64,000 nt of DNA, taken from positions 1 to 64,000 of the forward strand of contig JAJFLC010000007.1 in NCBI GenBank assembly GCA_021772895.1, given 5' to 3'. Shown here piece after piece: positions 19,346 through 35,961 of the stretch (the first letter of the stretch is position 1; each line of letters begins with the position of its first letter). The notes beneath the pieces were generated by a model. The model did not search any database and had not been told where the DNA came from. It worked only from the letters and a program-made list of their open reading frames with translations. This stretch comes from Mariprofundaceae bacterium. GTDB taxonomy: Bacteria; Pseudomonadota; Zetaproteobacteria; Mariprofundales; Mariprofundaceae. A program made the translations under genes and the position numbers.

Positions 19346-19660
19346 ATGAAAAAGACAGGAACAGTTTTTGTGGCCCTTGCTGTCATCGGCTTACTCGGAA
19401 CACCAGCGGTGGCTTCCGATATTCCTGACGGTGAAAAAATCTTCAATAAAAAATGTAAAATGTGTCACAAAATTGATAAGAAAAAAATTGGCCCTGCAGT
19501 CAAGGCTATGAATCAAGATGCTGAGGTGCTACGTTCTGCCATTACCAAAGGTAGGAAGTCCATGCCCAAATATTCCGGCAAACTTTCAACCGAAGAGATT
19601 GATGCAGTTGTGGTATATTTGAGGGAAAAACAGGGTAACCCCTGCGCCACAAAACTTTAA
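19346..19660 (+). CDS. Small periplasmic cytochrome c
   Basis: 104 aa with a signal peptide (cut near AVAS, residue 24). Single heme motif CKMCH (37-41), conserved GP (about 49-50) and a probable axial Met in SMPKYSG (Met73), the layout of class I cytochrome c. It ends LREKQGNPCATKL, with an extra Cys100. GGAG lies close before ATG 19346. Probably a soluble electron shuttle to or from the neighbouring three-heme cytochrome and membrane protein. Confidence 0.9.
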   Translation: MKKTGTVFVALAVIGLLGTPAVASDIPDGEKIFNKKCKMCHKIDKKKIGPAVKAMNQDAEVLRSAITKGRKSMPKYSGKLSTEEIDAVVVYLREKQGNPCATKL

Positions 19661-19676: not shown

Positions 19677-20501
19677 ATGTTTAAAATTTTTACAATAATC
19701 ACCGCCTGTATAGCGGTAATGGCCGGTACTGCCAATGCATCAGGCATTCCAGATGGCAAAGCACTCTTTTCTAAAAATTGTGCAAGCTGCCACGGCATGG
19801 ATGGGACAGTCAGCGACTACGGCAAAAAACTGGAGCCATTTCAGGCACGAAACCTGAGAGCGGTTGCATCCTATGTTTCTTATGATGAGTTCCGCCGGAT
19901 TATCACGCACGGTACCCATGACACCAAGATGAAAGCGATGAAGTACATTCTTGATCCATTTGAAATTGAGGCCATTGTTGATTATGTAAAAACCTTCACC
20001 TATAAACCCAACCTGGCCAACGGTCAGAAACGTTTCAAACAGGTATGTGCTTCCTGCCATGGTTTTGATGGCCGTGCTCAAACAGGCGTTGGTGCTAAGA
20101 ACCTTGTTTACAGCAAGCTCTCTCTTAACGAAAAAGTTCACACCATTCGTTATGGTCGATCCGGCACACTGATGACAGCCAAGCGCCACCAGCTCTCTAA
20201 CCCGGACATTGCTGATATCGCTAACTATGTAGATTCTCTAAAACATGCTGGTGATGCAAAAGCTGGAGCCAAACTTTATGCCAAAAACTGCAAATCCTGT
20301 CACGCAACACCATCCAGTATTCAGATCATTGGAAATGCAGCAGTAAGGCACAAAAAAATCGCCGATCTGGATGATCACATGCTTGACCTTCGTATCCGTC
20401 ATGGGCGACACGTTGACCGCGAAGGACGTGAGTCCATTAAAAAACTATCTTCTGATAACATTCAGGACATCGTTAGTTATCTAAGGAAAAACAGTAAGTG
20501 A
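19677..20501 (+). CDS. Three-heme periplasmic cytochrome c
   Basis: 274 aa with a signal peptide (MFKIF...TANA). Three cytochrome c domains in tandem, with heme motifs CASCH (35-39), CASCH (124-128) and CKSCH (205-209). Domains 1 and 2 have methionines where the sixth ligand is expected (THDTKMKAM, SGTLMTAKR). Domain 3 instead has RHGRHVDREG with no obvious Met, so its heme may have a different ligand. AGGAG precedes the start. Its stop overlaps the hemN start by 4 nt (GTGA). Probably an electron-transfer protein in the same chain as its neighbours. Confidence 0.88.
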   Translation: MFKIFTIITACIAVMAGTANASGIPDGKALFSKNCASCHGMDGTVSDYGKKLEPFQARNLRAVASYVSYDEFRRIITHGTHDTKMKAMKYILDPFEIEAIVDYVKTFTYKPNLANGQKRFKQVCASCHGFDGRAQTGVGAKNLVYSKLSLNEKVHTIRYGRSGTLMTAKRHQLSNPDIADIANYVDSLKHAGDAKAGAKLYAKNCKSCHATPSSIQIIGNAAVRHKKIADLDDHMLDLRIRHGRHVDREGRESIKKLSSDNIQDIVSYLRKNSK

Positions 20502-33607: not shown

Positions 33608-34000
33608 GCCACTCTCTCCTTCATCTCTAAAATTTGTAGAATGTTCAGAACCCTAACCAAAGCGATAAAAAAAATCAGTGTTTCAGATGTTATGCCCTAC
33701 CTATCCCTTTCTACTAAAATAAGACACATGTATAAACTTTCGGGAGGCTGAGTGCCTGATTCAGGCATTTCAGTTCAGAATAATATAAAAACTTAATCAT
33801 TCGCTTAAAACAACAGAAGACCTAAAGCATCATCTATTTACCCATATACACCCTCAATTCAATCCAAAGAATCAAACCAGATTTTAAAAAAATGTCTCTA
33901 TAACAGCACACGTTGCAATTTAAGTTGTGTGATTTTTTACACACAAAACATACAATGGGGAGTATGCTATCGCACAGATGGGAACCTGAAGGGGTATGCA
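33608..34000. other. Intergenic region with dyads upstream of the response regulator
   Basis: No ORF. It carries a nested palindrome CTGA-G-TGCCTGA-T-TCAGGCA-TT-TCAG at 33748-33773 and, nearer the response regulator, the CRP-like box listed separately. TATGCT at 33963-33968 is a plausible -10. The mgtE promoter on the other strand should also lie here. Confidence 0.5.
33925..33946 (+). promoter_or_regulatory. CRP/FNR-family operator upstream of the response regulator
   Basis: TTGTGTG-N8-CACACAA, containing TGTGA-N6-ACACA (33928-33943). Centre 33935.5. With the -10 TATGCT (33963-33968) the inferred start is near 33975, so the site sits at about -40, the class-II activator position overlapping -35. 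Two Crp-family genes lie just downstream of this gene. Confidence 0.6.
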
Positions 34001-34369
34001 ATGATACTAATTGCCGAAGATGATCTGGATATCCGAACCGTTTTAACTGAAATGTTAGAGGGTTTAGGCCATGCAACCATTGCTTTTGCAGATGCAGAAT
34101 CCGCTGTTCAATTTTTAGATTCGGGAGGCATTGATGACATCAGCATGATTGCCAGCGATTTTGTTTTACCTGGTGCCAATGGCCTGGAGCTTATCAAATA
34201 TGCCAAAAATCTACGCACCAATATTCCGGGCTTTATAATTTCAGGCTATACCACACAAAATATTCCATCTGATGTCCATTATCTCAAAAAACCATTTCAG
34301 CTCAGACAATTAAAAGAGATTGTGATAAAATGTCGTCAGCAACTTACTGAGTCATCGCTTACACATTAA
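34001..34369 (+). CDS. Single-domain response regulator (CheY-like)
   Basis: 122 aa, receiver domain only. Acidic pocket AEDDLD (Glu6, Asp7, Asp8), phosphoacceptor Asp53 in IASDFVLPGANG, Ser81 in the switch position and Lys97 in LKKPF. ATG 34001 has AAGGGG 8 nt upstream. No output domain, so it works by protein contact or as a phosphate relay. No kinase is adjacent; the orphan hybrid kinase at 43339 is a possible but unproven partner. Neighbours on the other strand are a double cNMP-domain protein and a Crp/Fnr regulator. Confidence 0.9.
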   Translation: MILIAEDDLDIRTVLTEMLEGLGHATIAFADAESAVQFLDSGGIDDISMIASDFVLPGANGLELIKYAKNLRTNIPGFIISGYTTQNIPSDVHYLKKPFQLRQLKEIVIKCRQQLTESSLTH

Positions 34370-34407
34370 CTGTTACAATTCTCAACCCGTAAAAAACACT
34401 TCAAAAA

Positions 34408-35169
34408 TCACCTTTGCAGACGAAGAAACTCACGTTTAAAATCTGCGTAAGCCTCGCAGTAACTACGGATAAGTGGCCCCGGAAATGCCAACATTTCACA
34501 CCACCCTTGAGCTATCACATCCGCCGTTGCCGCTTCAACTTTTTTAAGCACAGAAATCTCTCCAATCATATCGCCCGTCACTTGACTGGCGATCAATTGG
34601 CCATCCCTGCTTACTTCCACCCGGCCTCGTGAAATAAGGTAAAGTGTGTCATTTTCAATGTTTTTTTGGAGCAGTTTTTCATTTGGTAACAGCGCAATCG
34701 GATGCGCTTTAGACAGTATGTTTTTCCGTTCCGTTTTTGGCAAACTGCGAAAAAGTGAGTGCAGTGTCATCAGCACATCATAATCCCGTTCCCGAGCTAT
34801 TCTTTCCAGCACCTGCCGCAACTCAAATCCCTCCGTTCCCTGAAGCAACGGGAAAACATCCTTCGACTTAAATTCGATACAGCTCACATCACCTTCTGCA
34901 CGCCAGGCAATCACAGGCAAAGTATCTTCACTAAACATGCTACGTACACCGAGGAATTCATCTTTACCACTTTGGCAAAGCTTCGTCTTGCCACTTTTCT
35001 CAATGGCATACACAGTCACGTTACCATCTTCGATAAGCCGCATACCCGTAAATCCGGATGTTTCATTTGGAAGCCATTCTCCGGCATGATAAATCGCTGT
35101 TTCCCCATGTTCCATGAATGCCTCTAAAACATTTACAGGAAGGAAATCCAGTTCTTCTTTTAATGACAT
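34408..35169 (-). CDS. Double cyclic-nucleotide-binding-like domain protein without HTH
   Basis: 253 aa. Two beta-roll domains of the CAP_ED type, about residues 15-115 and 135-235, and no DNA-binding domain. In domain 1 the phosphate-binding cassette is degenerate (FLGVRSMF instead of GELSLL-R). In domain 2 it is closer (GEISVLKKVEAATADV, 203-218) but the key Arg before the Ala-Thr is missing. Classical cAMP binding is therefore unlikely. Lies 49 bp downstream of the Crp/Fnr gene on the same strand, so probably co-transcribed. It may sense something else or bind the regulator. Confidence 0.75.
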   Translation of the reverse strand: MSLKEELDFLPVNVLEAFMEHGETAIYHAGEWLPNETSGFTGMRLIEDGNVTVYAIEKSGKTKLCQSGKDEFLGVRSMFSEDTLPVIAWRAEGDVSCIEFKSKDVFPLLQGTEGFELRQVLERIARERDYDVLMTLHSLFRSLPKTERKNILSKAHPIALLPNEKLLQKNIENDTLYLISRGRVEVSRDGQLIASQVTGDMIGEISVLKKVEAATADVIAQGWCEMLAFPGPLIRSYCEAYADFKREFLRLQR

Positions 35170-35218
35170 GAATCGTGATTCTCTTCGTTCATGCGGAAGA
35201 GACTAAGAAATTTCTGGC

Positions 35219-35890
35219 CTAACGGGAAGTTTCCTTATTCAAAGTCAGCAGTTTGGCTATTTTTTCTTTTGATAAACTGACCGTTCGGCCATCCTCAGTC
35301 GCAGCCACCGCACCAGCCTCAGTACACCGTTTCATCAACTTGGTAACATGCTCACGGGTACAATTCAGCATCCGAGCCATATTCACATGGGTAGGCAGCT
35401 CAACTTCCACGCTATCACCCGTTACACTTACCCACTCTTTGCGCCCTAACATATAAATACCAAGACGATGTAACACCTGAGACTGGCCCAAGCGTCGCAC
35501 AACTTTTTGCGTTGCCGCAAAATGTAAGACTGTTGAATCTAATACTCTTCTTAAAAAGTTTTCGTTTTGCATCTGTGTGTCCCACACCGCACGGGAGATA
35601 CGCAATACACGGACAGGAGTCATACACCGTGCACAAGCCATATGCTGTTTAACACCCATCAAACCCATTTCGCCAATCAACTGGCCTGGAGACAATGTAA
35701 ACAACAGTGTTTCACTACCATCGACATCAGCCACAAAAACTTCAACCTTCCCCTCAAGCAGCAAATAGGCTCCCCGATCAGATGAATCACCTTCCATCAA
35801 TAAAAATGAACCCTTCTCGACACTGACTTCATCAGCACCCGGAAAGTCATCCCTCACAAAAAAACACTGCTCAACACCTTCCATTATCAT
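35219..35890 (-). CDS. Crp/Fnr-family transcription regulator
   Basis: 223 aa. N-terminal cNMP-type beta-roll (residues ~15-120; cassette GEMGLMGVKQHMACARC at 74-89), a dimer helix, and a C-terminal winged HTH (165-190: LPTHVNMARMLNCTREHVTKLMKR in two pieces). Arg179, Glu180 and Lys184 match CRP's DNA-contacting Arg180, Glu181 and Arg185, so a GTGA half-site is expected. The cassette lacks the Arg-Ser pair that holds cAMP phosphate, and there is no FNR-type cysteine set, so the ligand is unknown. A GGTGA-N6-TCACA box lies about 60 bp upstream. Confidence 0.9.
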   Translation of the reverse strand: MIMEGVEQCFFVRDDFPGADEVSVEKGSFLLMEGDSSDRGAYLLLEGKVEVFVADVDGSETLLFTLSPGQLIGEMGLMGVKQHMACARCMTPVRVLRISRAVWDTQMQNENFLRRVLDSTVLHFAATQKVVRRLGQSQVLHRLGIYMLGRKEWVSVTGDSVEVELPTHVNMARMLNCTREHVTKLMKRCTEAGAVAATEDGRTVSLSKEKIAKLLTLNKETSR

Positions 35891-35945
35891 TAGACCCCTT
35901 TCCCAATCAGGTTCCCCACTTTATGATGGTGACGATATAAATAAC

Positions 35946-35961
35946 GGTGAAAAATTTCACA
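35946..35961 (-). promoter_or_regulatory. CRP-like operator upstream of the Crp/Fnr gene
   Basis: GGTGA-AAAATT-TCACA, one base from the CRP consensus TGTGA-N6-TCACA. On the minus strand a weak -10 (CATAAA, 35925-35920) would put transcription start near 35913, with the box centre at about -40. This suggests autoregulation. It is also about 110 bp upstream of mfd on the plus strand. Confidence 0.6.

Follow-up and report, generated by a model that had tools for sequence, protein, structure and literature searches.

Ligand changes have occurred repeatedly among Crp-family proteins, and to our knowledge the steps of such a change are rarely visible. The canonical cAMP-CRP carries a phosphate cassette (Gly-Glu ... 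Arg-Ser/Thr) in its ligand pocket, and the residues that read DNA in CRP-type proteins are Arg180, Glu181 and Arg/Lys185. DdrI of Deinococcus radiodurans, a Crp-family protein with an RETVTK recognition helix, binds TGTGA-N6-TCACA in a cAMP-independent manner (PMC11253593). In operons of the Group 1 Rup type, where the Rup GTPase comes with coiled-coil and membrane partners, the output is typically a histidine kinase or a diguanylate cyclase/phosphodiesterase (PMC4316618).

The stretch compared here with these systems (the window) covers the opening 64 kb of contig C21 in a Mariprofundaceae genome of 2.45 Mb in 24 contigs (G000). A preliminary description, made from the letters of the window alone, had placed a receiver gene, a double-cNMP gene and a Crp-type gene next to each other, and these were confirmed as open reading frames with Pfam domains in each (Table 1). 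Together they are bordered by MgtE and Mfd genes. The Crp-type gene (crp) and the double-cNMP gene downstream of it lie on the same strand with a gap of 49 nt, and probably form one operon.

Table 1. Positions of the genes and Crp-like boxes of the locus within the 64-kb window
Feature	Position	Strand	Description
Receiver gene	34001-34369	+	PF00072, E 7e-11; 122 aa, stand-alone
Double-cNMP gene	34408-35169	-	Two PF00027 stretches; 253 aa, no HTH found
Crp-type gene	35219-35890	-	PF00027 + PF13545; 223 aa
Crp-like box, receiver side	33925-33946, core 33928-33943 TGTGATTTTTTACACA	+	One mismatch to TGTGA-N6-TCACA
Crp-like box, crp side	35946-35961 GGTGAAAAATTTCACA; TGTGAAATTTTTCACC read on minus strand	-	One mismatch to TGTGA-N6-TCACA

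Both Pfam domains of the window Crp scored above their cut-offs, which places it in the CRP/FNR superfamily, whose members have a cNMP-type beta-roll, then a long helix and a winged HTH at the C-terminus, and its AlphaFold model revealed a Crp-type fold matching Crp structures (mean pLDDT 79 and pTM 0.58, with an uncertain domain orientation and no information on the ligand). Alignment located the recognition helix at C177-T-R179-E180-H-V-T-K184, and the GTGA-reading residues named earlier (Arg179, Glu180 and Lys184) were indeed found at the three CRP-type reader positions. The same alignment bore out that the ligand site lacks the cAMP Arg-Ser pair: His-Met stands where E. coli has Arg82-Ser83, while Gly71-Glu72 and Thr127 are kept, so that the Gly-Glu part of the canonical cassette is present and its Arg-Ser part replaced. 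Moreover, the protein scored 43.6 bits against NCBIfam PRK11753, below the equivalog score of 266 bits, and is in that respect not a canonical cAMP-CRP. The genome encodes a canonical Crp elsewhere (C19:29249), with a Gly-Glu-Arg-Ser pocket and a full RE..R helix.

In the phylogenetic tree, the window Crp belongs to a clade of 31 proteins, all from Mariprofundaceae (support 0.84), that leaves out the canonical Crp of the genome, within a subclade of 11 (0.94) and with the Crp of G008, which has an Arg-Met pocket, as its sister (0.99). Gly71-Glu72 and Arg180-Glu181 are kept by every member of this clade, and Arg82 by 28 of the 30 relatives of the window Crp; the Arg is lost in the window protein (His-Met) and in the paralog L079 (Ser-Leu). 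The latter is the second Crp copy of G022 (L079:5705-6725); its gene is preceded by a long perfect palindrome, GGTGA-N6-TCACC, and followed by the beginning of a CHASE2-type cyclase. No relatives were found in a scan of the genome collection with the window Crp as the query.

Examination of the neighbourhoods of the relatives revealed a class III nucleotide cyclase beside crp at 19 loci. At 17 of these the cyclase comes with a Rup-type small-GTPase operon, consisting of a coiled-coil protein, a large protein, a Ras-like GTPase and the cyclase itself, whereas at the other two (G008 L071 and, at a contig end, G022 L079) a CHASE2 cyclase lies directly behind crp. The segment L083:3424-9098 is an example of the GTPase operon with its cyclase beside Crp and a dedicated receiver. 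Of these operon proteins, the coiled-coil and the large one gave no match in Pfam. When the genome collection was scanned with the GTPase, a cyclase was found directly behind the GTPase in every Mariprofundaceae-type match, but in no match from another lineage. In the window, the double-cNMP gene occupies the place behind crp where G008 and G022 have their CHASE2 cyclase, and crp has no cyclase neighbour. A search of the window genome for a Rup GTPase homolog gave none at E<=1e-15, and six class III cyclases are encoded elsewhere in it.

Because Arg82 is so widely kept among the orthologs and 19 loci lie beside cyclases, the ancestral signal of this clade was most likely a cyclic nucleotide. 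This in turn narrows the earlier suggestion of a non-cAMP signal, which may hold for the window member alone given its His-Met pocket, but not for a clade in which most orthologs keep the nucleotide pocket. A joint loss of the Arg and the cyclase was considered and dropped, since L079 lacks the Arg and still has a cyclase behind it; loss of the Arg therefore need not mean that the cyclase link is lost. The retention of Glu72 and Thr127 also makes weak nucleotide binding by the window Crp possible. Accordingly, the window Crp might still be under cyclic-nucleotide control: contacts from Glu72, Thr127 and the backbone would hold the cAMP or cGMP in spite of the His-Met pair, and the supply would come from cyclases elsewhere in the genome, a reading that agrees with the kept Gly-Glu and Thr127, the six cyclases of the genome and the cyclases adjoining the orthologs. 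We nevertheless regard it as unlikely, because the Arg it has lost is kept by 28 of 30 orthologs and contacts the cAMP phosphoribose in known Crps (PMC11253593).

The window receiver has its acidic pair, phospho-acceptor Asp, Ser/Thr and Lys intact, as inspected in the alignment (motifs EDD, DFVLPG, ISG and KKP), and these phosphorylation residues together with PF00072 assign it to the response regulator receivers. A receiver lies near this Crp in 19 other Mariprofundaceae genomes, the two genes being directly divergent in 15 of the 19 neighbourhoods, tail to tail in two and separated by other genes in two. The segment from beta4 to the KP motif measures 21 residues in the window receiver and 21-22 in most Crp-adjacent receivers, compared with 24-28 in untruncated control receivers. 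Receivers usually use the alpha4 region as part of their output face, and its common shortening makes these proteins look like a dedicated receiver subfamily. Supports around the window receiver in the receiver tree were low (0.25-0.85), and it is therefore the common deletion that serves as the argument for pairing. With a Crp of the 31-member clade and a stand-alone, short-alpha4 receiver nearby, the window contains such a pair; judged on sequence, receiver and Crp are a conserved, inherited pair in Mariprofundaceae. Directly upstream of crp, some genomes (L076, L086) carry a hybrid histidine kinase, which is another tie of this Crp to two-component signalling.

From the centre of each box to the start codon downstream of it is 65 nt for the receiver gene and 63 nt for crp, and both boxes lie in short promoter regions. 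Within the window, boxes with at most one mismatch were about as frequent as expected by chance (5 found versus 3.5 expected), and this count was therefore left out as support. Across the whole genome, however, 105 such boxes were found versus 43 for the reversed control pattern, and boxes with an A/T core, a criterion picked after the boxes had been seen, numbered 14 versus 3 in the 2.45 Mb, two of the 14 being those of the window. By our own estimate, the chance of finding 2 of the 105 plain-pattern boxes in the 573 nt of both promoter gaps is about 3e-4. The most powerful of these tests, a footprint across species of the 180 nt upstream of each of 26 crp genes, including that of the window, revealed a box with at most one mismatch in 19 (versus 0.93 in dinucleotide shuffles) and a perfect TGTRA-N6-TYACA in 9 (versus 0.04), odds that overstate independence because the species are related and the 26 genes are not independent draws. 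On these counts, the Crp-like boxes reported before the receiver gene and crp stood up, and on sequence grounds they are more than chance.

The claim that both boxes lie near -40 from plausible -10 elements held in part. By eye, TATGCT (33963-33968) on the receiver side and CATAAA (35925-35920) on the crp side are candidate -10s that put the boxes near -40, but TACAAT (33951-33956) and TATATC (35939-35934) are other candidates that put them near -27, and a sigma-70 scan detected no promoter at either box. A further question is which protein uses the boxes. They might belong to the canonical Crp, a reading favoured by its Gly-Glu-Arg-Ser pocket, its complete helix and the enrichment of the motif across the genome; the three genes would then be part of an ordinary cAMP-Crp regulon and the window protein would have other targets or none. 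The box of the orthologous crp genes is conserved, however, and varies as a palindrome (TGTAA..TTACA at some loci), which fits a dedicated autoregulator. Although this is not decisive, we consider ownership by the canonical Crp improbable.

Several of the perfect genomic boxes fall inside genes, and we therefore claim no regulon. One perfect box, TGTGATATAAATCACA (L140:2255-2270, G000:C19:244254-244269), is followed at a distance of about 104 nt by a probable operon (L140:2374-4534) for a Roadblock/LC7-like protein, two Pfam-less proteins and an Arf/Ras-like GTPase. One-mismatch boxes were also seen at L145:2853-2868 (G000:C7), just upstream of the gene for a single cNMP-domain protein (2027-2797), and in the window at 19454-19469 (TGTAAAATGTGTCACA), where a cytochrome c-like gene (19677-20501) follows after about 210 nt.

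As described beforehand, the operon partner of crp has two degenerate cNMP domains and no detectable HTH: the phosphate-binding Arg is absent from both domains. The second domain lacks it in the orthologs compared as well, which makes the whole protein family degenerate. Five further genomes of Mariprofundaceae (G022, G014, G013, G035 and G018) have good orthologs, and G007 has a weaker match. Only in the window genome and in G013, where crp, receiver, cyclase, GTPase, both operon partners and the double-cNMP gene all lie within about 7.5 kb, is this gene near crp; in other genomes it is mostly elsewhere. A search for the three-gene set thus returned all three together in just one other genome. 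Of the proposed three-gene regulatory module, the receiver-Crp pair stands by its recurrence in 19 other genomes, the common deletion and the conserved boxes, and the case for the double-cNMP protein as a third member is weak. Another double-cNMP protein with two PF00027 stretches is encoded on G000:C18 (L202:2201-3076), with a Crp-like box, TGTGATAAAAATCACT, in front (L202:2091-2106).

The scattered positions of the double-cNMP gene, and the lack of an ortholog of this Crp in the same-genus genomes G001-G003, all of which are incomplete, might also indicate that the window neighbourhood is a leftover of rearrangement in which the three proteins no longer cooperate. This seems very unlikely to us, as a separate box lies before the receiver gene and before crp, the receiver still shows both its characteristic deletion and the residues for phosphorylation, and the three genes are clustered in G013 too.

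We therefore favour, with a probability of roughly 0.5, a reading in which the window Crp belongs to a dedicated receiver-Crp module, as a derived member that regulates itself and whose nucleotide input has been altered or lost. The protein would bind the TGTGA-N6-TCACA-like boxes before its own gene and the receiver gene, and by binding both would regulate itself and its receiver partner. In the relatives, Crp would read a cyclic nucleotide made by the adjacent class III cyclase, a Rup-type small GTPase would probably control this cyclase, and a two-component signal would enter the same circuit through the dedicated receiver. The window lineage has no cyclase neighbour, Arg82-Ser83 has changed to His-Met and a double-cNMP gene lies behind crp, so that cAMP control is probably weak or lost. 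DNA binding could then depend on how much of the protein is present, on another ligand, or on contact of the Crp with the receiver or double-cNMP protein. That the Crp of a former Rup GTPase-nucleotide cyclase-Crp circuit has exchanged its nucleotide input specifically for protein inputs, namely the dedicated phospho-receiver and degenerate double-cNMP partner as gates of its DNA binding, appears quite unlikely.

Pockets of the kinds Arg-Thr (as in G036), Arg-Met and His-Met thus occur within one clade whose boxes are conserved, and a cyclase adjoins the Arg-Thr and Arg-Met kinds but not the His-Met kind. With E. coli CRP, the window Crp has in common the fold, the dimerisation helix, Gly71-Glu72, Thr127, Arg180-Glu181 and the TGTGA-type box; it differs by His-Met for Arg82-Ser83, Gln for Ser128 and Lys for Arg185, and by its receiver and double-cNMP neighbours. 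In the cited sections on DdrI, the RETVTK helix resembles the REHVTK of the window and the cAMP pocket is altered in both proteins, but DdrI retains the Arg and has changed adenine contacts, and those sections mention no dedicated receiver such as that beside the window Crp (PMC11253593). DdrI shows that binding of TGTGA-N6-TCACA without cAMP is possible for a Crp whose recognition helix is comparable (PMC11253593). For the link of a Rup-type GTPase, a class III cyclase, Crp and a receiver, we found no description in the open-access literature; as deduced from gene content, the relatives may hold a bacterial route from a Ras-like switch via a cyclic nucleotide to transcription. Their four-gene operon has the layout of Group 1 Rup, with a coiled-coil protein, a large Pfam-less protein, a Ras-like GTPase and a signalling output protein (PMC4316618). 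It differs from Group 1 Rup in that the output is a class III nucleotide cyclase with Crp and receiver alongside (PMC4316618), and the window genome differs in turn by having the Crp and receiver without this operon.
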